Source of the DNA: Bacteroidales bacterium
GTDB lineage: Bacteria > Bacteroidota > Bacteroidia > Bacteroidales > GWA2-32-17
DNA length: 64,000 nucleotides
Direction: 5' to 3'
Assembly: GCA_013314715.1 (NCBI GenBank)
Contig: JABUFC010000010.1
Location: forward strand, 1 to 64,000
The position numbers were made by a program, and so were the translations under genes. Positions 36,519 to 49,726 of this stretch are shown here, piece after piece. Numbering within the stretch: the stretch's first letter is position 1; each line of letters starts with the position of its first letter. The notes below the pieces were generated by a model. The model was not told where the DNA came from. It saw nothing but the letters and a program-made list of their open reading frames with translations, and did not search any database.

Positions 36519-39500
36519 TCAACGGAGTAAATTTATTAAACCGTTCTTAGTCAATGTTTTATTACCATAAGTTATGGCTTTAACCGTATAAGCATAGGTA
36601 TCCATGTCTTGTTTCATTCCTTTAAATGTCCCATCCCATCCTTGATGCAAATCATCGGTTTCAAAAACACATTGTCCCCAGCGGTTAAATATTTTAAATT
36701 CTTGCAATTGTTTAATACCCCAACCACGCACATAAACCACATCGTTGTTGCCATCGCCATTGGGTGTGAAAGCAGTAGGTACGTCAATGCTATACTCTTC
36801 TTTCACTTCGATGTAAACGGTACCGGTAATTTGGAAACAATGCATAGAATCGGTTATAAGCACCGTATAGGTTGTATTTTGCAAAGGTTGAGCAATTGGG
36901 TTAGCACAGGTGGTACACGACAATCCTGTTGCAGGTGACCATTGATACGAAACTGTATTTTGATCAGAATTTGCCCATAAATTCACCTGTTCGCCAATAA
37001 TGATAGTTGTATCGGAACTATTATCAAGGCTTGGCTGTTGTTGAACAAATACCGATAACGATTGCGTGTTGCTACAGCCATAAGTATCATAAACAGTAGC
37101 CGTATATATTGTTGTACTGTCTGGTGAGGCATTGGGAAAATAAGAAGAAGGATTATCGAGGCCCTGAACAGGTTGCCAAATTATAGAATTTCCTCCCGAA
37201 GCCGATAACTGAACGCTGCTTCCATGACAAACTGCAACATCGTTTCCTAATTGGATTGTAGGCAATGGATATAAAATAAAAGGTTTTTTAATACTATCTA
37301 CACAGCCTATTTGACTTGTAACTACTAAATTTATGTAATAAGTCTGTTGTGTTTGCCCAGTATTAAAATAATAGTGTGAACTTGGTTGTTGTGCATTATC
37401 GCTGGAGCCATCGCCAAATGTCCAAACATAAGAGTCGGCTCCAGAACTACTGTTTGTAAAGCTCAAGGTAGCATGACCACAAGCAACACTATCGGAACTT
37501 CCATTGTCTTGCACATAAGAAAAATCGGCAAATACCTGATGAACATGCAAGGTATCAAAGGCCGATTGACAACATGTAGCATCGCTACAATAAATTAACG
37601 AAGGCACAAAATAACCGTTTGAAGGATAATAGTTATAGGTATGGCTTGTAGGAATTCCGTTAGATGTAGCACCATCGCCAAAATCCCAATTATAAATTAA
37701 AATATTTTGATTTTGTGTTACATTGAAGTTAACTGTTGCACCTTTACAAATAATTGTATCACTCATGGTGATTTCAGTATAAGGACCACCTACCGTAATT
37801 AGCAATGAATCTTTGTCTTTACATCCAAAACTTGTAGTAGCTTCGAAACTCAACCAATAATTTCCAGGCTGCGTATAATTATGAAAAGGTGTTTGCTGAA
37901 AAGCCACTCCACCATCACCAAAATTCCAAAGCCATGTAGGATTAAAGATAGTATCGGTATTATTAAATATGGTTATTGGAAAGGGATAACAATTTGTATC
38001 GGCATCTAATACACTAAACTGCACATTCATATCTTGAACTTGAACATAGTTCTGCACAACAACAGTATCTTTACAGCCAGGTAGGCTATTTTCGACATAT
38101 AATGTAACAGTATACCTACCCGTATCGTTATATAAATGATTTGGATTAACAGCTATTTCTAAGCCACTTCCATCGCCATAATCCCACGCATATTGCGTAA
38201 TATTTGGAATGTTCGAGATAAAATGAATGGTATCACCTAAACAAAGTGTATTGTCGAGACTCGAAAAGTTTGCTTGTATAAGATCCGCTTGCAAATATGC
38301 ATTAGTTGCTTTATTAGCGTAACAACCTAAAGCATCTACAACAGTTAAATCTACCGAATAATACCCAGGATTTGATATAGAAAAGGTAGGATTTTGAGCC
38401 GTTGATGTTAAATTACCCGGATTTAAAGTCCATTGCCAAGCAACCAACGTTGTATCGGCATGGCTTGTATCGGTTAATAATACATTATAAGGAACACAAA
38501 AATGTAATGGATTGCCTGTAAAACCAGGTTGTGGATAAAATACTCTAATGGTAACCGAGTCGCTATCCACACATCCAATATTATTGGATACTATCAAATA
38601 AGCAGTTATGGTATCAGAATGATTAGGATAATTATGAAAAACATATTGATGCTGAATTAAACTATCTACCAAAAAATCGGTATAACTCATCGTATGCGCT
38701 GCACCGTCTCCATATACAAAGGTAATTTGATCAAAATCTTGTGTGTTTTCTGTATTCATATAAACATGATTAGGACATGTTGGGCTTGTAATTTGCAAAT
38801 TGGCTTTAATATCTTTTATTTTGAGTGAAAAATTTTCTTCCCAAAAACACCCTGAACTATCGTTGTAAGCAATAAAATGTATATCGTAATTGCCACGTGC
38901 CGGATAGGTAAACCAAACGGTATCACCCAACGAATAAACGGGAGTTGCAAATTTGGTAGAATCGTCGTAAACCCCATCGCCATCCATATCCCAATACCAA
39001 CGGTTGGCTTGTTTTATAAAAGGCATAATTGCTCCAATCAAATAAGGATTTTGACATCCAACCATAATAGTATCTATTGTTCCGGTATAAGGACCATTCA
39101 GCACAAAAATGGAATCAAGAATAAGTGTATCATAACATCCATTATGGTTTAACATATAAGTTAACGAAATATAACCATTCCCTTGAAATGTTATATCGGG
39201 ATGTTGTTCATTACTATTGCCTACCACTAAATTGCTATCGTTCATAAATTGCCAACTATATGAATCAATGTAATTTGAGTCTGTCGAAAGGCTTATAAAA
39301 TGAACCGTATCGTTAGCACATCCACCCGTATAGGTATAAGAAACTTGGGGATGTTGATGTTCACCCACTTGTATTTGCATATTAGTTGTTGCCGTACAAC
39401 CTAAATCGGTAGTAACAGTTAAAGTAACATTGAAAACACCCGTGTCGGCAAAAGTGTGATTGGGGTTTTGCAAGTTTGAGGTTTGTCCATCTCCAAAATC

Positions 39501-40916
39501 CCACAACCACGATGTAAAATGCGTATAATTAGTATTACACGAACTACCATCGGTAAAAGATACCGGCAACGGCTTGCATCCCTCCTTAGGAGTAGCCTCA
39601 AAATCGGCTACTGGCTTTTCAACAATAACGGGAGTAGGGTTTTGATATGCACCTTGACAACCATGATTATCGGTCATAATAAGGCTAACATAATAGGTTC
39701 CATTATCTTGATAAGAATGACTTGGATTTAGTCCTGTTCCATTAGAATTATCACCAAAATTCCATTGATACGAAGTTCCATTAGTATTTACAGGATTAAA
39801 CGTAATAGGATTACCACACGAAAAAGTTGGAGTAAAATTAAATTGTGCATTGGGAGCAGAGCGCACATAAATAGTGCGATAAGCAGTATCCTGACATGGA
39901 GTACCGGGAGCCGCTATCATCATCACAGTATAAGAGCCCGATGTTGTATAAGTGTGGCTTGGATTTGACAAAGTACTGGTTCCACCATCACCAAACGACC
40001 ACAATGCAGTTGTACCAGCATCGTTTATAAACTGAACAATCTGATTTACACAAACCGTATCGCCCAAATTCGTATGAAAAGCAGCATTTACACTACTAAT
40101 ATTGATATAATTAGTGTAAGTAGTATCGTTTGAACAACCATATTGATTGGTTACTTCTAACGACACCGAATAAGTTCCTGTTTGCGTATAAGTATGTGAA
40201 GGATTTTGAGCAGTAGAAGTAGTGCCATCGCCAAAATTCCATAAATAGGTAAGGGAGCCCATACCCGTACTTTGATTGTTAAAATTTACAGTAAATGGAG
40301 CCGTACAGTTCGATGTAAAATCAGCCGTAAAAGCAACCTGAGGAATAGACGATACAATTACAGCCCCCTGTTGTGTATATGTAGAATGACAGCCATGTCC
40401 ATCGGTAATTTGAAGAGAAACCCCGTAGCCTCCCGGCTGTGTATATTGATGATTAGGATTTTGCTGATTGGAATTTCCTCCATCGCCAAAATCCCATACA
40501 AAGCTTGTAATTACAGTATCACCAGGTTGAGAAGTATTGGTAAAATTTACATTCAGAGGAACGCACCCCATTGCTGGATTTAATGTAAAACTAGCAGAAG
40601 GGTTTTGAAAAATATGAATATAATTTGTACGAACCATAGTATCAGACTGGGTTCCATTCGAAACAATAAGCGTAACCGTATAAGTGCCAGGATTTACATA
40701 ATTAGCGGTAGGATTTTGTAAATTAGACGAATTACCATTTCCAAAATTCCATTGATAGGTTAATGTCCCTGTACCTGTCGAATTATTAATAAAAGATATG
40801 GTCATAGGTGCACACCCTTGTGTAGGGCTAGCAGTAAAACTTGCATTCACTTGTGCTTGAACCAAAGAAGCCAGTAATAAAATATGTAGAATTAAAATTA
40901 AAGTTTTATTCATCAT
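36519..40916 (-). CDS. Giant PKD-repeat surface protein with type B T9SS sorting domain
   Basis: A secreted protein of about 1465 residues. I start at the Met at 40916 (MMNKTLILILHILLLASLVQAQ), which begins a clean signal peptide; a longer frame to 40943 adds nine unrelated residues. About 14 PKD-like modules follow, most with the W.FGDG...NP.H.Y..G.Y.V.L signature. Two Ig-like SPDS/TTIYTATV-type modules come next. The C-terminal sorting domain of the gliding-motility-associated type is FTPNGDGNNDVVYVRGWGIKQLQEFKIFNRWG...WDGTFKG. It is exported by T9SS and is probably a surface adhesin or glycan-binding protein. The repeats are similar in DNA and may be prone to recombination. Confidence 0.93.
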   Translation of the reverse strand: MMNKTLILILHILLLASLVQAQVNASFTASPTQGCAPMTISFINNSTGTGTLTYQWNFGNGNSSNLQNPTANYVNPGTYTVTLIVSNGTQSDTMVRTNYIHIFQNPSASFTLNPAMGCVPLNVNFTNTSQPGDTVITSFVWDFGDGGNSNQQNPNHQYTQPGGYGVSLQITDGHGCHSTYTQQGAVIVSSIPQVAFTADFTSNCTAPFTVNFNNQSTGMGSLTYLWNFGDGTTSTAQNPSHTYTQTGTYSVSLEVTNQYGCSNDTTYTNYINISSVNAAFHTNLGDTVCVNQIVQFINDAGTTALWSFGDGGTSTLSNPSHTYTTSGSYTVMMIAAPGTPCQDTAYRTIYVRSAPNAQFNFTPTFSCGNPITFNPVNTNGTSYQWNFGDNSNGTGLNPSHSYQDNGTYYVSLIMTDNHGCQGAYQNPTPVIVEKPVADFEATPKEGCKPLPVSFTDGSSCNTNYTHFTSWLWDFGDGQTSNLQNPNHTFADTGVFNVTLTVTTDLGCTATTNMQIQVGEHQHPQVSYTYTGGCANDTVHFISLSTDSNYIDSYSWQFMNDSNLVVGNSNEQHPDITFQGNGYISLTYMLNHNGCYDTLILDSIFVLNGPYTGTIDTIMVGCQNPYLIGAIMPFIKQANRWYWDMDGDGVYDDSTKFATPVYSLGDTVWFTYPARGNYDIHFIAYNDSSGCFWEENFSLKIKDIKANLQITSPTCPNHVYMNTENTQDFDQITFVYGDGAAHTMSYTDFLVDSLIQHQYVFHNYPNHSDTITAYLIVSNNIGCVDSDSVTIRVFYPQPGFTGNPLHFCVPYNVLLTDTSHADTTLVAWQWTLNPGNLTSTAQNPTFSISNPGYYSVDLTVVDALGCYANKATNAYLQADLIQANFSSLDNTLCLGDTIHFISNIPNITQYAWDYGDGSGLEIAVNPNHLYNDTGRYTVTLYVENSLPGCKDTVVVQNYVQVQDMNVQFSVLDADTNCYPFPITIFNNTDTIFNPTWLWNFGDGGVAFQQTPFHNYTQPGNYWLSFEATTSFGCKDKDSLLITVGGPYTEITMSDTIICKGATVNFNVTQNQNILIYNWDFGDGATSNGIPTSHTYNYYPSNGYFVPSLIYCSDATCCQSAFDTLHVHQVFADFSYVQDNGSSDSVACGHATLSFTNSSSGADSYVWTFGDGSSDNAQQPSSHYYFNTGQTQQTYYINLVVTSQIGCVDSIKKPFILYPLPTIQLGNDVAVCHGSSVQLSASGGNSIIWQPVQGLDNPSSYFPNASPDSTTIYTATVYDTYGCSNTQSLSVFVQQQPSLDNSSDTTIIIGEQVNLWANSDQNTVSYQWSPATGLSCTTCANPIAQPLQNTTYTVLITDSMHCFQITGTVYIEVKEEYSIDVPTAFTPNGDGNNDVVYVRGWGIKQLQEFKIFNRWGQCVFETDDLHQGWDGTFKGMKQDMDTYAYTVKAITYGNKTLTKNGLINLLR

Positions 40917-40988
40917 TGTTGAAACGCTTAAAAAACAGTGCAATTTACAAAAAATATTTTACTCATCATTTTTTTTAAAAAAAACTAT

Positions 40989-40996
40989 TACTTTTG
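40989..40996 (+). promoter_or_regulatory. -7 box in front of the TPP riboswitch
   Basis: TACTTTTG matches TAnnTTTG and would start RNA near 41003, four bases before the riboswitch P1 stem. The position agreement supports the call even though no -33 TTG is evident. Confidence 0.6.
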
Positions 40997-41006
40997 CGAC
41001 ATACAT

Positions 41007-41093
41007 CAATGGGGTGCCTTAATACAACGGGCTGAGATCATACCCTTTGGACCGGGACGGGTAATGCCGAGCCGGGAACGAAGACTCCCATTG
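41007..41093 (+). promoter_or_regulatory. TPP (thiamine pyrophosphate) riboswitch
   Basis: The Thi-box core is readable: GGGGTGCC at the 5' side, CTGAGATCATACCC in the pyrimidine-sensing helix, and GGGTAATGCCGAGCC with GGGAACGAAG in the pyrophosphate-sensing part. P1 closes with CAATGGG (41007-41013) and CCCATTG (41087-41093). It lies in the leader of a TonB-dependent receptor, so TPP should lower receptor synthesis. A hairpin directly after P1 (GACAATT/AATTGTC, 41093-41112) may be the expression platform. It lacks a U run, so control is more likely translational. Confidence 0.93.
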
Positions 41094-41130
41094 ACAATTG
41101 TAAAAAATTGTCTAACTAAAAAAAGTTTTT

Positions 41131-43515
41131 ATGAAAAAGTTTAGTTTTTTATTTGCAGCTGTGTTTCTGCATGTTTATGCTTTTTGTCAATTTTCAATCA
41201 GCGGTAAAGTCGTTGACGAAAACAATCAACCGCTAAGTTTAGCAAATGTAATGCTCGAAAACACTTTTATTGGTACTTACACCGATGTAAATGGTGATTT
41301 TTTGCTTAAAAACGTAAAAAAAGGGAGCTACAATTTAAAAATTAGTTTTATTGGCTATGAAACCGTTCAACAAAAAATTGAAGTAAATGCAGACATTACC
41401 AATTTAAATGTCACTTTAAAAAAAGCAGCATACATAGCTGATGAAATCATTGTACAAGCTACTCGAAGCGACAAAACCATGAGTGCTAGTCAAAGCTCAT
41501 TAAGTAAAGAAGCCATACAGCAAAATAATCCGGTAAAAGACATCCCTTATCTGTTAAGCATGACTCCATCAGTGGTAACCACATCCGATGCAGGTATAGG
41601 GGTTGGCTACACAGGAATTTCGATTCGCGGAAGCGATGTACGCCGCATCAATGTTACCGTAAACGACATTCCCCTTAACGATGCCGAATCGCATGGTGTT
41701 TGGTGGGTCGATTTACCCGACATAGCCGCCTCTACCGACAACATCCAAATTCAAAGAGGAGTTGGCAGCTCAACCAATGGAGCTGGTGCCTTTGGGGCGT
41801 CTATCAATATGCAAACACTTACCCTAAATAAAGATCCCTTTGCCGCATTTGACATAAACTACGGCAGTTTTAATACTTCGCGTTTAATGCTTAATACAAG
41901 CACCGGTCTTATCAATAATCATTTCAATGTAGATTTACGACTTTCAAAAATACATTCCGATGGTTTTATTGACCGTGCATCAAGCGATTTAAAATCGTAT
42001 TACTTCGCCGCCGGATATTATGCAAAATCAACCATGATAAAATTTATTAATTTCTCAGGATACGAAAAAACCTATCAAGCATGGTACGGAGTTCCTAGCG
42101 ATTCTATAGAAACAAACCCTACATTCAATCCATACACGTACGATAATCAAACCGATAACTATTGGCAAAGCCACTACCAATTGCACATTACGCACGAGTT
42201 TTCTGAACACTGGAATACCCATACAGCTTTTCACTATACCAAAGGTAAAGGTTATTACGAAAGTTATAGAGAAAGCAAAAAATACTCGAGCTTTGGTTTA
42301 AACCCTATTATCATAGGAAACGATACCATAACAAGAAGCGATTTTGTTGACCAAAAATGGCTTGACAACGATTTTTATGGTATTGTAAGTTCATTTAACT
42401 ACCACAAAAAAAGTCTTTTTGCTACTCTTGGCTTAGGTGCTAATCGTTACGAAGGCAAACATTTTGGTGATATTATCTGGGCTAAAATAGTACCCGATAC
42501 AATGGCTCAAAGCACAAGTAAAAAATATCGTTGGTACAACGGAACCGGCGATAAAAAAGATTACAATATCTACGCAAAAGTTAATTATCACTTATTAGCC
42601 AACCTTTCTGTTTATGGTGACATACAATTTAGAGCCATTGATTATGCTATTGGTGGTATAGACGACGATTTAAGAGACATTACACAATCGAAACAATACC
42701 TATTTTTCAATCCTAAATGCGGGTTTAACTATAACATTAGCAACCAACAAACTATTTTTGCAACTTTTGCAGTAGCACATCGCGAACCCGAACGCTCTAA
42801 TTTTACCGATGCTGATTCTGGAAAAGTTCCCAAACCCGAAAAATTATTCGACTACGAACTTGCATATCAATTTAAAAACGAAAATATTTTTGTCGGTATT
42901 AACTTATTCTATATGAATTATCGCGACCAATTAGTTTTAACAGGAGCTATCAATAATGTAGGTAGTCCTATTATGACCAATGTTGAAAATAGTTATCGCA
43001 GAGGTATAGAGCTTGAATTTGGTATGAACATCACGAAAAAACTTCTTTGGAATTTCAATTTCACCACCAGTCAAAACAAAATAAAAGAATTTGTAGCTTA
43101 TTTTGACGACTGGGATACATGGGGTCAAAGAGATACCATTTTAAAAAACACCGATATTTCTTATTCGCCCAACAATATTTTTTCTAATCAATTTATATAC
43201 ATTCCTGTTCATGGTCTAAAATTGATGCTTCAAACTAAATTCGTCGATAAACAATATTTAGATAATACTCAAAATCCTGAAACGATGCTCGATTCTTATT
43301 TAGTTAACAACTTTACCGTAGAATATAACTTTAATACCAAATGGGCAAAAGAATGTAAATTTCAACTAACTGCCAATAATTTCTTAAATAATAAGGTTTA
43401 TATCAGCAATGGTTGGGCATATACTTATTATTCGGGCAATAAAAAGGAATATATGATAGGATATTATCCACAGGCTCCTTTTCATGTAACAGCAGGTTTT
43501 TCGATAAAATTCTAA
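41131..43515 (+). CDS. TonB-dependent outer-membrane receptor, predicted thiamine importer
   Basis: A 794-residue TonB-dependent receptor. Signal peptide (MKKFSFLFAAVFLHVYAFCQ), then a carboxypeptidase-D-like regulatory domain (ISGKVVDENNQPLSLANVMLENTFIGTYTDVNGDFLLKNVKKGSYNLKISFIGYE). A plug follows (about 130-240: SVVTTSDAGIGVGYTGISIRGSDVRRINVTVNDIPLNDAESHGVWWVDLPDIAASTDNIQIQRGVGSSTNGAGAFG), then a 22-strand-type barrel ending in FHVTAGFSIKF. The TPP riboswitch in its leader points to thiamine or a precursor as substrate. TPP-controlled receptors of this kind are known in Bacteroidota. The energising ExbB/ExbD genes at 24798-27012 could serve it. Confidence 0.9.
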   Translation: MKKFSFLFAAVFLHVYAFCQFSISGKVVDENNQPLSLANVMLENTFIGTYTDVNGDFLLKNVKKGSYNLKISFIGYETVQQKIEVNADITNLNVTLKKAAYIADEIIVQATRSDKTMSASQSSLSKEAIQQNNPVKDIPYLLSMTPSVVTTSDAGIGVGYTGISIRGSDVRRINVTVNDIPLNDAESHGVWWVDLPDIAASTDNIQIQRGVGSSTNGAGAFGASINMQTLTLNKDPFAAFDINYGSFNTSRLMLNTSTGLINNHFNVDLRLSKIHSDGFIDRASSDLKSYYFAAGYYAKSTMIKFINFSGYEKTYQAWYGVPSDSIETNPTFNPYTYDNQTDNYWQSHYQLHITHEFSEHWNTHTAFHYTKGKGYYESYRESKKYSSFGLNPIIIGNDTITRSDFVDQKWLDNDFYGIVSSFNYHKKSLFATLGLGANRYEGKHFGDIIWAKIVPDTMAQSTSKKYRWYNGTGDKKDYNIYAKVNYHLLANLSVYGDIQFRAIDYAIGGIDDDLRDITQSKQYLFFNPKCGFNYNISNQQTIFATFAVAHREPERSNFTDADSGKVPKPEKLFDYELAYQFKNENIFVGINLFYMNYRDQLVLTGAINNVGSPIMTNVENSYRRGIELEFGMNITKKLLWNFNFTTSQNKIKEFVAYFDDWDTWGQRDTILKNTDISYSPNNIFSNQFIYIPVHGLKLMLQTKFVDKQYLDNTQNPETMLDSYLVNNFTVEYNFNTKWAKECKFQLTANNFLNNKVYISNGWAYTYYSGNKKEYMIGYYPQAPFHVTAGFSIKF

Positions 43516-45245: not shown

Positions 45246-46801
45246 ATTTTGGGTTTCAAGATAGCATATGGAATTAACATTTCATCTAAGCTGACCCCAC
45301 CATGCTGAAAAGTATCGCGATAAAGACCAACGTATTGGTTAAAATTATTGGGGTAAGCGAAAAAATCATTATTTAGAGCAAATATATACGATGCAGTAAC
45401 CATCGCTTTCGGAAGGTAGGCTTTAGAAGGTTCTTTAATCTCAAATACTTCTTTAGCATTATAGTTCATATTTCTACCTTGTTTATAACGTAAATTGGTA
45501 TTAAGATTACGCTCTCCTATTACTTTTACAGGATTCTCAACCCGAATAGAACCATGGTCGGTTGTAACAAAGAGAATATATTTTTCTTCTGCCAATTTCA
45601 TAAAAATCTCGAAAAGGGGGCTGTGCTCAAACCATGAATAAACAATACTCCGATAAGCTTCATCGGTGTTGGCAAGTTCACGCATGGTACGCGATTCGGT
45701 TTGAGAGTGCGAAAGTATATCAATAAAATTATAAATTATAACTCCTTGATTAAATTTTTGAAGTAAATTAGGCAACTGAGTAAGAAAATGACTACCATCA
45801 TGATTGGTGATAATTTTATTGAAAAAGAAGCTTTTTTTTATCCCCAAACGTGCACATTGTCTTTTCAATAGCTCTTCTTCGTACATATTTTTTAAACCTT
45901 CATCGTCGTCATTTTTCCAAATATCTGGAAAAATCTTTTCAATTTCAGAAGGCATTAAACCTGCAAACAGTGAATTTCGAGCATACGATGTAGTTGTTGG
46001 TAAAATGGCCGTATATAAATCAGTTTCAATTATAAAATTATTATATAACAATTTTGATATTGCTTCCCAATGATCGTAACGTAAGTTATCAATAAGAATA
46101 AGAGCTACTTTTTCGTATTGATTGAGCAAAGGAAAATATTTCTTTGACAATAAGTTTGACGAAATAAGAGGTAACGATTGGCGAGTATCTGAAAACCATT
46201 GTAAATAATTATTTTTTATGTATTTACAAAAAGTATGATTAGCTTCTATCTTTTGAGATTGCAATACATTGAGCATGCTTTCGTTATGGGTCAATTCCAA
46301 CTGTTGTTCAAAAAATAATATATTTTTATATATTTTTTTCCAATCTTCCAAATTTTGAGCATACATTATTTGTTGTGTCAGATGATTAAATTCGCTTTGA
46401 TATTGTTGAAGCGATTTTTCGCTAATTAACTTTACCTTTTCAGAAACTTTTTTTATAGCAAGCAATAATTGATTCGGATTAACGGGTTTTATTAAATAAT
46501 CAGTAATGTTAGCACCAATGGCACTATTCATTATATCTTCTTCTTCGCTCTTGGTAACCATAATAACCGGTAAGTGTGGCTTTATCTTTTTTACCTCATC
46601 GAGTACTTGTAAGCCACTTAAACCGGGCATATTTTCATCTAAAATTACTAAATCGTAGCTTGATTGCTTTATTAAATCTAATGCGTCGGTCCCGTTTGAG
46701 CATGAATGTAACTCATAACCCTTGCTTTTGAGAAAATGAAAATAAGGTGTCAACAAATCAATTTCATCGTCCACCCATAAAATATTAAAGCTAGTGCTCA
46801 T
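45242..46801 (-). CDS. porX: PorX, response regulator with PglZ phosphatase-like domain (T9SS regulator)
   Basis: A 519-residue regulator. The N-terminal receiver domain has Asp11-Asp12, phospho-acceptor Asp55 (LVILDENMPG) and Lys105 (LIKPVNP). A helical linker follows, then a PglZ-family alkaline-phosphatase-superfamily domain from about residue 200 (LILIDNLRYDHWEAI; TTSYARNSLFAGLMPSEIEKIF; VTTDHGSIRVENPVKVIGERNLNTNLRYKQGRNM). This receiver-PglZ architecture is PorX, which controls T9SS gene expression with a PorY sensor and a sigma factor in Porphyromonas and is reported to be a zinc-dependent phosphodiesterase. Metal ligands appear intact. The gene abuts porW (TAATG overlap). Confidence 0.95.
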   Translation of the reverse strand: MSTSFNILWVDDEIDLLTPYFHFLKSKGYELHSCSNGTDALDLIKQSSYDLVILDENMPGLSGLQVLDEVKKIKPHLPVIMVTKSEEEDIMNSAIGANITDYLIKPVNPNQLLLAIKKVSEKVKLISEKSLQQYQSEFNHLTQQIMYAQNLEDWKKIYKNILFFEQQLELTHNESMLNVLQSQKIEANHTFCKYIKNNYLQWFSDTRQSLPLISSNLLSKKYFPLLNQYEKVALILIDNLRYDHWEAISKLLYNNFIIETDLYTAILPTTTSYARNSLFAGLMPSEIEKIFPDIWKNDDDEGLKNMYEEELLKRQCARLGIKKSFFFNKIITNHDGSHFLTQLPNLLQKFNQGVIIYNFIDILSHSQTESRTMRELANTDEAYRSIVYSWFEHSPLFEIFMKLAEEKYILFVTTDHGSIRVENPVKVIGERNLNTNLRYKQGRNMNYNAKEVFEIKEPSKAYLPKAMVTASYIFALNNDFFAYPNNFNQYVGLYRDTFQHGGVSLDEMLIPYAILKPKI

Positions 46802-49527
46802 TATTGCTGCTTTTTCTTTAAAAACTTGCGTTTAAAAAACTTTTGATAACGCTCTATTTCGCCAGTAGATTGAAGCTTTGTATAATTATCGTCAGAGATT
46901 ACAAAATATTGATAATGTTTTTCATGAATGTTTTTAAATACAATATCCTGATTCTTACTAACATGCTTGTAATATTTAACCGCTTCTTTAAAATTTTTAT
47001 AGGGAAATACCTTGATATAGTAATACTTGTCGTTCCATATTCCATTTAGAATCTGAAAATCAAACATGCTAAAATAATCTATGTTATAACCAAATAAATT
47101 ATATTTTAATCGATTTATATCTGCATTTTTATCTAACAAAATTATAAACTGATAATTTGCATTTTCGTCATAACTGTAAAATGTATCTTCTGCCTCTTCT
47201 TTATTTTCCTCTGTTTGATTGTTGTTAGGAGTATTTTGTACAGTATTTGAATTGTTTTTATTTATACTTTGTTGTTTTATATTATTCTGACTTAAGGAAG
47301 CTAAATAATTAGGGTCAAAATTATTGAGCGAAGCTAATAAAAACTCCGCATGTTGTTTTTCCGAAGTACCCGGATATTTTTCAATGATTTCCGATAATTG
47401 ATTTTTATAATCATTAATTTTACCAAGTTTACCATCAGTCATAGCTTTGAGCAACTTAAATTTTAAAAATATGGGGGTATCTTTATATAGTGAATCAGCT
47501 GTTCTGTAATGATGAAATACCGTTTTAAAATCGTTGTCTTTGAATGAATCGAAAGCCTCTTCGTACAATGTCTTTATCTTCATTGTTTTTTCTTCTTCGT
47601 CTTTCAAATAATTAGGATTTGAAAGCATTTGAGCAAACTTACTATCAGGAAATTCATTAATTATTTTATTTTTATAACTTTCTACCTGAGAAGTTTGTTG
47701 CAAAATATTATGTAATCTATATAAATCGTAATATGTTAATAATTTATATGAAGTATTTGGAAAACGTTCGATTAGCGTTGTAAATTGTTTAATTGCTAAA
47801 TCATAGTCATTGAGTTGATTCATAGCAGCTTCACCCGATTTAAAATATGCATCTTCTAATTTTTTGTTCGACGCTTGCATTAATGAGTCAGTAAGGGGTA
47901 AATTTACTAAATAATATTCCCTTTGCTTAGGATTTAAAGCAACTTGCTGATTACCACTCTGAGTTTGAGTTGTATCTTCAGCATTGGCGGTTAATACTAC
48001 TGCTTTATTTTTACGACGCCAATCGTCTTCGAGCTTACGATTCCCCCATTTACGTTTAAATTCGGCCATCCCCATAGCTAGTGTCGAAGGATTGTAAAAA
48101 TACCATTTGCCACCAGAGGTTTGATTTGCCAAAGGATTTAAACTTTGCTGGTTCATAAACAGCATATTATTAGCCTGCTTTTGTTCTTCTTCTTGTTTAC
48201 GTTTTTCTTCGTCTATCAATCGCTGTATTATGTCGTCAATTATTTTATTCCGATCTTTTTCTGACATTTTAGCTAATCTTTGTAAACTATCTTCGGTTTG
48301 AATAATAATTAAATTATCAGCCAATGTATTTAAATTATTAGCCAAACTTTTTACACGTTTATATTCAGGATAGTTATTATCCATTAATGTTAACGAGGAG
48401 TCAAAATACGCCTGAGCCTTAACATAATCTTTCATATTTAAGTATATATCACCAACCGACATATACGAAATAGCTTTTTGATGATTGTTGCTTTTTGTAT
48501 TCTCGATGCTTTTTTTATAGTACATGAGCGCTTCGGAAGTATTGTTTTCTTTGTAATATAAATTGGCAATTGCATAGTATATCTGATCTGAATAATCTAA
48601 ATTTTTATCATCTTTAAGCATTTTAAACAATTCCTTACGAATCATATCGGCATTACCACCCTCGAAACATGTTGCCCTATTTATTTGAGCATTAAAAGTC
48701 ATTTCATAGCGATTGCTATATTTTATCGCTTGGGTATAATTTTCTGTTGCTTTAGACAATTGTTTATTATATTGATATAATTGTGCTAAAATGTAAAAAC
48801 TTCGAGCCTTTTCCTGTCGCTTACGGGTGAATTTTATGGCTGTGGTTAATTTAGATATAGCTTGAGTAAAATTTTGTTGTTTTATAAAGAGCTGAGCATA
48901 TGTTTGATTTAAAAATTTTCGGTACTTTTTAGGAAAATCTTTATCACCATCTACTCTATCGAGTAATGCCTTAGCATCTTCGTATTTTGTAAGTTGTATA
49001 TACGTTAATGCTAACCAAATACTTGCTTCGTATTTTATCGAACTCCATGTATATTCTTTTATTATATATTCAAAATCTTCTTCTGCAGCATACCAGTCAT
49101 GATTTACAAAATTTGCTTTGCCATGCAATAACCAACTATCGTCAACCCATTCGCAAAATTCGGTACGATTACGAAAAGCTTTTTGTCGAGGCGTCATGTT
49201 CGATTTTGCCTTTGGCCTAACTGTTATTGAATGCTTTTTTATAACAATAGCTGCTTTATCTTTTGCTCGTTCCATATCGGCAGAAGCCTGTTTCACAGCT
49301 TCGTCATTGAGTATGGCCATTACATTCAAAATTAGCGAATAATCGTCACTCGGATTGGCATTAATGCGTTTTATGGCTTGTTTATAAGATTCATTACCAT
49401 TAAAATAAGCATTGTAATGCGAAGTCAAATTATGATACGTACGAGAAACAAAAGTGTTCTTTTTAGTCGAACAAGACGATATCAACAAAAAAAGTAAAAT
49501 TGATATATAAACACAAAATAGCTTCAT
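46801..49527 (-). CDS. porW: PorW/SprE, type IX secretion TPR lipoprotein
   Basis: A 908-residue outer-membrane lipoprotein with lipobox ISSC near residue 19. The mature start TKKNTFVSRTYHNLTSHYNAYFNGNESYKQAIKRI is very characteristic of PorW/SprE. TPR repeats occupy the middle (for example KARSFYILAQLYQYNKQLSKATENYTQAIKYSNRYEMTFNAQINRA). A Gln/Asn-rich linker near 790-820 precedes a C-terminal domain (NYQFIILLDKNADINRLKYNLFGYNIDYFSMFDFQILNGIWNDKYYYIKVFPYKNFKEAVKYYKHV). PorW is needed for T9SS secretion and gliding and links the PorKN ring to the Sov pore. No other T9SS structural genes lie in the window. Confidence 0.95.
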   Translation of the reverse strand: MKLFCVYISILLFLLISSCSTKKNTFVSRTYHNLTSHYNAYFNGNESYKQAIKRINANPSDDYSLILNVMAILNDEAVKQASADMERAKDKAAIVIKKHSITVRPKAKSNMTPRQKAFRNRTEFCEWVDDSWLLHGKANFVNHDWYAAEEDFEYIIKEYTWSSIKYEASIWLALTYIQLTKYEDAKALLDRVDGDKDFPKKYRKFLNQTYAQLFIKQQNFTQAISKLTTAIKFTRKRQEKARSFYILAQLYQYNKQLSKATENYTQAIKYSNRYEMTFNAQINRATCFEGGNADMIRKELFKMLKDDKNLDYSDQIYYAIANLYYKENNTSEALMYYKKSIENTKSNNHQKAISYMSVGDIYLNMKDYVKAQAYFDSSLTLMDNNYPEYKRVKSLANNLNTLADNLIIIQTEDSLQRLAKMSEKDRNKIIDDIIQRLIDEEKRKQEEEQKQANNMLFMNQQSLNPLANQTSGGKWYFYNPSTLAMGMAEFKRKWGNRKLEDDWRRKNKAVVLTANAEDTTQTQSGNQQVALNPKQREYYLVNLPLTDSLMQASNKKLEDAYFKSGEAAMNQLNDYDLAIKQFTTLIERFPNTSYKLLTYYDLYRLHNILQQTSQVESYKNKIINEFPDSKFAQMLSNPNYLKDEEEKTMKIKTLYEEAFDSFKDNDFKTVFHHYRTADSLYKDTPIFLKFKLLKAMTDGKLGKINDYKNQLSEIIEKYPGTSEKQHAEFLLASLNNFDPNYLASLSQNNIKQQSINKNNSNTVQNTPNNNQTEENKEEAEDTFYSYDENANYQFIILLDKNADINRLKYNLFGYNIDYFSMFDFQILNGIWNDKYYYIKVFPYKNFKEAVKYYKHVSKNQDIVFKNIHEKHYQYFVISDDNYTKLQSTGEIERYQKFFKRKFLKKKQQ

Positions 49528-49594
49528 GTAAAAAAAACTTATGCAAAATAACTAAACTTTTATGAAATTATTGCATCAACTAATAAAAAAAAGA

Positions 49595-49692
49595 GGGCAA
49601 GCTACTTATATCGCACCGCTACAACCTCCTACCCTTGCTTCTTTCCAGACCTGGGGGAGTTCAGAGGGAGCTGGTCGTATAAGACTTGCCCG
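49595..49692 (-). ncRNA. ffs: Signal recognition particle RNA (4.5S, small bacterial type)
   Basis: The SRP core is clear on the minus strand: CCCAGGTCTGGAAAGAAGCAAGGG, the apical loop with the GGAA tetraloop and the asymmetric bulge that bind Ffh. The distal arms pair as a long hairpin: CGGGCAAG at the 5' side with CTTGCCC at the 3' side. At about 98 bases it matches the small bacterial form without an Alu domain. Its promoter lies just upstream (49696-49726). Confidence 0.95.
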
Positions 49693-49695
49693 ACA

Positions 49696-49726
49696 CAAAA
49701 GTACAACATTTTTTAGTTACTTGCAA
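49696..49726 (-). promoter_or_regulatory. Promoter of the SRP RNA gene
   Basis: On the minus strand TTG (49724-49726), then exactly 20 bases, then TACTTTTG (49696-49703). Transcription would start a few bases further on, matching the 5' end of the folded SRP RNA. This is a textbook Bacteroidota primary-sigma promoter. Confidence 0.85.

Follow-up and report, generated by a model that had tools for sequence, protein, structure and literature searches.

What does the RNA leader of a TonB-dependent receptor gene in a Bacteroidales genome (G000) sense? Leader and receptor lie in the 64,000-nt stretch of DNA analysed here, which we call the window, and the initial annotation, made from its sequence, named the leader a TPP riboswitch and the receptor a probable thiamine importer. 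The answer depends on one arm of the aptamer, which departs from the TPP class at positions where the ligand's pyrophosphate is recognized.

The leader element and its surroundings

The Thi-box core with its closed P1 can be seen directly in the sequence, as first described. It is preceded by a TAnnTTTG motif, which we take to be a -7-type promoter box, and followed by one TonB receptor ORF (Table 1). In all seven leaders that carry the variant aptamer, termed type A below, 7 to 10 nt separate the end of the box from P1. The predicted fold of the window leader comprises P1, the P4–P5 stems and a separate hairpin after P1; folding beats 197 of 200 shuffles, and the other 3 fold as well. The hairpin lacks a U run, and 18 bases separate it from the receptor's start codon (ATG, 41131), again as initially annotated. 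It occurs in some form in six of the seven type-A leaders, weakly in G001, and is absent from G007. The receptor was also said to stand alone, and it does: the adjoining long ORFs run on the opposite strand and PnuC is encoded elsewhere in the genome. A minus-strand ORF of 1474 aa (36519–40943), divergent from the receptor leader, reads by eye as a PKD-like repeat surface protein.

Table 1 Features of the leader and receptor gene in the window, and closed-arm loci of other Bacteroidales
Feature	Position	Strand	Basis or remark
TAnnTTTG box, -7-type promoter (assumed)	40989–40996	+	Direct reading of sequence
TPP-like aptamer, variant type A	41006–41094	+	RF00059, 39.1 bits; 7-sequence alignment
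P1 (UCAAUG/CAUUGA)	41006–41011 with 41089–41094	+	Direct reading
P2	41012–41015 with 41042–41045	+	Part of type-A aptamer
J3-2 CUGAGA, pyrimidine (HMP) pocket	41032–41037	+	Intact in 7/7 type-A sequences
Rebuilt pyrophosphate arm (P4–P5), CCGG-GA-CGG-GUAAUG-CCG-AG-CCGG	41052–41075	+	Direct reading and alignment
Post-P1 hairpin, GACAAUU/AAUUGUC	41093–41112	+	Predicted fold; GA common to hairpin and P1 3' strand
TonB-dependent receptor, 794 aa, OMthi-type	41131–43515	+	ORF, Pfam domains, similar receptors behind standard TPP aptamers
Closed-arm loci L045, L047, L048, L049, L077, L118, L119, L173, L205			Helix with one G.A mismatch

A low covariance score had been named in advance as evidence against a TPP riboswitch, and the search came out half that way: RF00059 matches the leader significantly (E 1.9e-6 in 301 nt, positions 41000–41094), yet its 39.1 bits fall short of the gathering cut-off of 54.3 bits, with a poor fit in the arm. 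The cut-off is missed because the P4–P5 arm departs at positions reported to be highly conserved. A scan of the window at Rfam gathering thresholds returned no TPP entry, only one tRNA and a Bacteroidales small SRP RNA (49591–49698, minus strand, 111.4 bits), which lies just upstream of a 908-aa ORF (46801–49527, minus strand). One other TPP match was obtained in the whole genome at E ≤ 10 (L052, 15.4 bits), and its sequence does not read like an aptamer. An assembly error was rejected as the source of the arm, which recurs in the assemblies of six other genomes. The leader element is real, conserved and more than chance, and it departs from a standard TPP riboswitch; annotation as a plain TPP riboswitch is ruled out as stated by the missed gathering score together with the changes in the arm.

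A standard pyrimidine half and a rebuilt arm

Type A resembles the TPP riboswitch (THI element, RF00059) in its P1/P2/P4 junction, P3, J3-2 UGAGA, L5 UAAU and place in a thiamine-gene leader. The window element has a standard pyrimidine half (GGGGUGCC, P3, CUGAGA, ACCC), and all seven type-A sequences contain P2, P3 and the UGAGA of J3-2 and keep the U-A-A-U loop of L5 as GUAAUG. The arm is different: where the standard form is CCU-GAU-(P5)-CGU-AGG, type A has CCGG-GA-CrG-GUAAUG-CyG-AG-CCGG. In thiM numbering (after PMC3764141; our alignment to thiM is ungapped and was made by eye), U59–A80 is replaced by G-C, C77 by A, and G60 faces a C, in all seven sequences. The 3x3 loop of the standard arm has become a 2x2 loop, an invariant tandem mismatch (GA/AG) with G opposite G and A opposite A.

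In the accessible text of PMC3764141, U59, A80, G60, C77 and G78 are counted as highly conserved TPP nucleotides. That paper describes the metal that coordinates the pyrophosphate as contacted by G60, C77 and G78, of which only G78 touches the pyrophosphate, and it is our basis for the role of U39–A43 in the pyrimidine pocket. The available portion of PMC4005666, which covers 11,056 TPP sequences, reports conservation to be highest in the ligand pocket and at the junction. The pyrophosphate site of RF00059 (U59–A80, G60, C77, G78) does not occur as such in type A; the letters at G60 and G78 are retained, so the arm is demonstrably rebuilt rather than demonstrably lost, and some metal or phosphate contact may survive. 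Of the name first given to the leader, the assignment to the TPP type and the standard pyrimidine half stand. The arm does not conform, and with C77 and U59–A80 replaced and the pyrophosphate-binding loop reshaped, TPP cannot be assumed to be the ligand.

In two genomes, G001 and G003, type A coexists with a standard TPP aptamer, located before a thi operon whose ThiE and ThiC were confirmed with Pfam models and whose first gene is presumably thi4. When type A is compared with the standard aptamer of these genomes, the pyrimidine half is alike at 39 of 42 positions and L5 at 6 of 6, whereas the arm strands are alike at only 12 of 22 positions in G001 and 14 of 23 in G003 (55–61%). The change is thus conserved, falls on ligand-contacting positions and separates type A from the parent aptamer of the same genomes.

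Conservation and rarity of type A

Among 60 genomes surveyed (G000 and 59 relatives), the weak matches in G001, G003, G004, G005, G007 and G008 are the same element as that of the window, which brings type A to seven genomes in one family and three genera. A receptor gene follows it in six of the seven. Arm positions are identical in all seven except for one P5 pair, G-C in four sequences and A-U in three; the elements of G004 and G008 are identical, and the covariation count therefore uses 4 and 2. All 20 pairs hold in every type-A row (100% of cells paired). Covariation within type A, with one pair changed on both sides and as many in 299 of 500 shuffles, is too thin to prove the structure alone. 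Between relatives, element identity is 72–97% compared with 22–51% over the 100 bases upstream (14 pairs, excluding G007 and the near-copy pair G004–G008); the means are 0.85 for the element, 0.37 upstream, 0.67 for the spacer and 0.57 for the first 300 coding bases.

When 393 genomes of the order were searched with a type-A model, at least four matches exceeded 108 bits (G004, G001, G003, G000), with the next at 67.5 bits; G005, G007 and G008 are absent among the matches listed. An exact-pattern scan of 84,980 species, from which the source genome of the window and its closest kin may be missing, produced 14 matches: five family members (G001, G003, G004, G005, G007), L098, and eight others whose sequences do not read like aptamers. 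L098 (46.0 bits) is the element of G053, which belongs to another family. Its arm is CCGG-GA-CAG-GUAAUG-CUG-AC-CCGG, with C at position 78, so that even the A-type loop is not fixed. The TonB receptor behind it is 51% identical to the window receptor. In a receptor tree it is placed away from the six type-A rows, including the window, that form a single clade (SH-aLRT 99).

The receptor and the thiamine genes of the family

The window receptor has Plug, barrel and CarbopepD_reg_2 domains above the Pfam cut-offs, and its sole match in the PDB was a SusC-homolog fragment. Receptors like it stand behind standard TPP aptamers in numerous further families of Bacteroidales, and the window receptor is 26–51% identical (median 45.5%) to 69 receptors filed automatically behind standard arms. 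Because of this likeness its identity as a thiamine receptor is well supported and it is a candidate importer, in agreement with the initial annotation. The nearest known system is OMthi (BT2390, Bacteroidetes), described in the available text of PMC5613172 as a TonB receptor under a TPP-type leader. The window receptor shares with the OMthi type its TonB domains and its similarity to receptors led by TPP aptamers, a likeness that rests on receptors behind standard aptamers and not on BT2390 itself. Unlike the OMthi system, the window has a variant leader, in a genome where TPK was not found and ThiL and a NadR-type kinase are present. The lone receptor had also been contrasted with the arrangement in Bacteroides; the same portion of PMC5613172 reports a single operon in most genomes surveyed, as that contrast supposed, but B. 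thetaiotaomicron itself has OMthi separate from pnuT-tnr3.

We compared thiamine genes in 11 genomes, ten from the family and G053. TPK was found in none of them, and a control Bacteroides gave a match. ThiL scores above cut-off in ten, the exception being G009, which is 74% complete; ThiC occurs only in G001, G002, G003 and G007, and ThiE/TenI is above cut-off in these four and G009. A search for pnuT and thi genes elsewhere, suggested at the outset, was successful in G000 for PnuC and ThiL and found no ThiC, ThiE or TPK there; a PF02581 match below cut-off, considered for ThiE, is PcrB. PnuC is present in eight of the 11 genomes and was not found in G002, G007 and G009. It is followed by a P-loop kinase ORF in the seven family genomes examined. 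In G000 it lies, on another contig than the window, beside a NadR-type kinase (C5:71981–72490; L143 2045–2554; AAA_28, NadR-like). The kinase is free of stops in G000, G001, G003, G004, G005, G006 and G008. Its gene is fragmented and interrupted by stops in G007, and the search found none in G002, G009 and G053.

The receptor was found at E ≤ 1e-60 in G000, G001, G003, G004, G005, G008 and G053, and not in G002, G006, G007 and G009. Its occurrence agrees with that of PnuC in ten of the 11 genomes (exception G006) and with that of the kinase in nine (exceptions G006 and G053, with the broken G007 copy taken as absent). PnuC exceeds the NCBIfam cut-off for NR transporters, whereas the kinase stays below the cut-offs of the NadR models, of which it matches a part; against PDB chains the two match only NR transporter and NadR proteins, a comparison that does not tell PnuT from PnuC. 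The NadR-type kinase behind PnuC, where no TPK was found, is a candidate for the thiamine kinase that would feed ThiL; NR salvage is an alternative role for it and PnuC. In G053 (L139), PnuC, ThiL and the receptor were found and neither TPK nor the NadR-type kinase was, so that the thiamine-phosphorylating step is missing from view. In G007 (L042 4574–5152), where no receptor was found, type A precedes a 13-codon ORF followed by thiS and thiC. This arrangement fits a thiamine signal and does not tell TPP from other vitamers.

Proposed mechanism and alternatives

Our preferred reading, to which we give a probability of about 0.5, is that the leader is a riboswitch of TPP descent whose phosphate-sensing arm has been rebuilt and that would serve as an OFF switch for a thiamine vitamer with changed phosphate recognition. 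A thiamine vitamer would bind the pyrimidine pocket, P1 would close and receptor expression would drop. Control would probably be translational, because the hairpin lacks a terminator-like U run. The hairpins of some relatives (G003, G005) can reach into P1 by pairing with its 3' strand, and hairpin and P1 would then be coupled. A model of the expression platform was sought in folds of the seven type-A leaders and set aside, as no pairing over the start codon common to them was found.

The pyrophosphate pocket is remodelled while the standard aptamer in G001 and G003 keeps its own, which suggests that the importer switch may read a different vitamer (thiamine or TMP), or phosphate in an altered way, rather than TPP through the standard contacts. 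According to the available text of PMC4112796, pyrophosphate is mandatory for thiM switching, and the KD cited there for TPP is 50 nM as opposed to 50 uM for thiamine, so the rebuilt arm is the expected site for a shift in phosphate preference. Imported thiamine would pass PnuC, be converted to TMP by the candidate NadR-type kinase beside pnuC, and be carried to TPP by ThiL, to which we assign this step because no TPK was found. The available part of PMC5613172 reports that the OMthi and pnuT operons of B. thetaiotaomicron showed no significant transcript change on thiamine and that the biosynthetic operon did change, a result that would fit control at the level of translation as well as some other signal.

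The same observations could also come from a working TPP riboswitch whose rebuilt arm binds the same Mg-pyrophosphate in another way, a reading we consider a serious contender and somewhat less probable than changed phosphate recognition. Since similar receptors use standard TPP aptamers elsewhere, an unchanged ligand would be the simpler history; P3 and L5 are nearly unchanged, the G60 and G78 letters remain, and a TPP signal would account equally well for the place of type A in G007, upstream of thiS-thiC. It is harder to see why such a switch would carry C77 to A, U59–A80 to G-C and a 3x3 loop turned 2x2 in 7/7 sequences when G001 and G003 keep standard aptamers for their thi operons, and the related L098 has even exchanged position 78 for C.

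We regard as improbable a decayed aptamer that binds nothing and leaves the receptor constitutive. The score below the Rfam cut-off and the transport operons of B. thetaiotaomicron, unchanged by thiamine at the transcript level in the available text of PMC5613172, would agree with decay, but the element is far better conserved than its flanks, its arm is nearly invariant with one compensatory change, and its pyrimidine pocket is intact in 7/7. Very improbable, finally, is a nicotinamide riboside module, with PnuC and the NadR-type kinase acting in NR salvage and an RNA that responds to a ligand resembling NR or NMN: the NCBIfam and PDB matches of the two proteins and their frequent co-occurrence with the receptor point that way, but standard TPP aptamers lead similar receptors, the pocket for the pyrimidine is intact, and the three genomes without a PnuC match (G002, G007, G009) all have ThiE/TenI-type matches, two of them with ThiC.

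A vitamer switch with a rebuilt arm would resemble the 'snuggler' variant riboswitch classes (PMC10043782, PMC7266159), rare kin of a common class with changed ligand-contact positions; in the available text of these papers the snugglers have proven ligands and none is named from the TPP class, whereas the type-A ligand is inferred from sequence. The literature, so far as its accessible text goes, treats TPP riboswitches as one class with one ligand. We found no natural TPP-derived class with another ligand in the accessible open-licence literature, and the available portions of PMC10043782 and PMC7266159 on riboswitch variants, and of PMC2258182, PMC6478431 and PMC4775224 on TPP or HMP-PP RNAs, name none. 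A natural rebuild of the pocket, before an importer gene and in two genomes beside a standard aptamer, makes the evolution of the scaffold toward other B1 vitamers directly testable. If the preferred reading is true, the annotation of TPP matches below the cut-off in Bacteroidales would change, and a salvage route of receptor, PnuC, candidate kinase and ThiL is pointed to in genomes where no TPK was found.

Other arms in Bacteroidales

The arm was read at 150 loci, 146 of them distinct (L053–L055 and L117 repeat L003, L006, L007 and L027; L056–L059, L064, L075, L078, L079 and L112 had been left out beforehand as second copies). With a standard arm defined as C or U, then G, at positions 77–78, there are 116 standard arms, 15 closed, 8 other, 6 type A besides the window, and L098. 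Automatic filing called 102 loci standard, including L076, which has A at 77 and was counted as 'other'; 17 unparsed loci (L046 has U-G) and L051 and L115 were judged standard by eye. L043 and L050 are doubtful members of the closed group (L050 keeps C-G). As 84 loci were chosen by type-A-model score (22 from the type-A-model scan of the order, L118 and L119, and 60 more) and L098 by pattern, these proportions are biased. A less biased set of 63 places in 60 genomes, in which close kin are over-sampled too, has 48 standard, 7 type A, 6 closed and 2 other arms.

The first ORF matches the window receptor above 150 bits behind 68 of 99 standard arms and more weakly behind two more (distinct loci with a gene call; the 17 by-eye loci lay outside the scoring and L076 is excluded); the remainder are thiC-like (8), thi4-like (7), thiD-like (4), thiM-like (3) and others or none (7). 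Receptors follow 11 of the 15 closed arms (thiC-like 2, thiD-like 1, another 1), all eight other arms, and five of the six type-A arms as well as the window, with thiC behind the sixth. In raw counts receptors thus follow most non-standard arms, but most standard arms likewise. On the receptor tree of 92 rows, which leaves out matches aligned over fewer than 400 residues, the label 'standard' requires 12 changes, and well-supported branches demand at least four of these; more than one change of the arm in Bacteroidales is therefore probable. The tree was made by a quick method: 36 of its 89 inner branches are weak, L076 carries the standard label and the L027/L117 receptor was entered twice.

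As read from their alignment, the closed arms outside the window are a second kind of remodelling of this pocket. Nine loci (eight distinct) share the form CCU-G-nn-CrG-GUAAUG-CyG-n'n'-A-AGG with small variations, in which the would-be pyrophosphate-loop bases pair with each other (AU, GC or UA at one pair; AU, CG, GC, GU or UA at the next). In this alignment 98.4% of cells are paired and covariation is 0.509, compared with a shuffled mean of 0.147 and 0 of 500 shuffles as high; the number of pairs changed on both sides, 3, does not exceed shuffles (222 of 500 as high). Behind these closed arms lie receptors and thiC-like genes, except in L205, where the ORF is of another kind. A broader scenario, which we offer as speculation and would sooner doubt than assert, is that the TPP scaffold gave rise on several occasions in Bacteroidales to pyrophosphate-independent RNAs, for the most part in front of thiamine receptors of the outer membrane; these would be the first natural class for thiamine or TMP, with type A as one conversion and the closed continuous-helix arms as others.

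Two further arrangements were seen among these loci. In L020 (G022) and L103 (G059) a standard TPP aptamer precedes an ORF that by eye is SAM-dependent methyltransferase-like, and in L160, near 98 and 291 (G178:C120:15726–16006), a tandem pair of TPP-like elements stands before a receptor gene.
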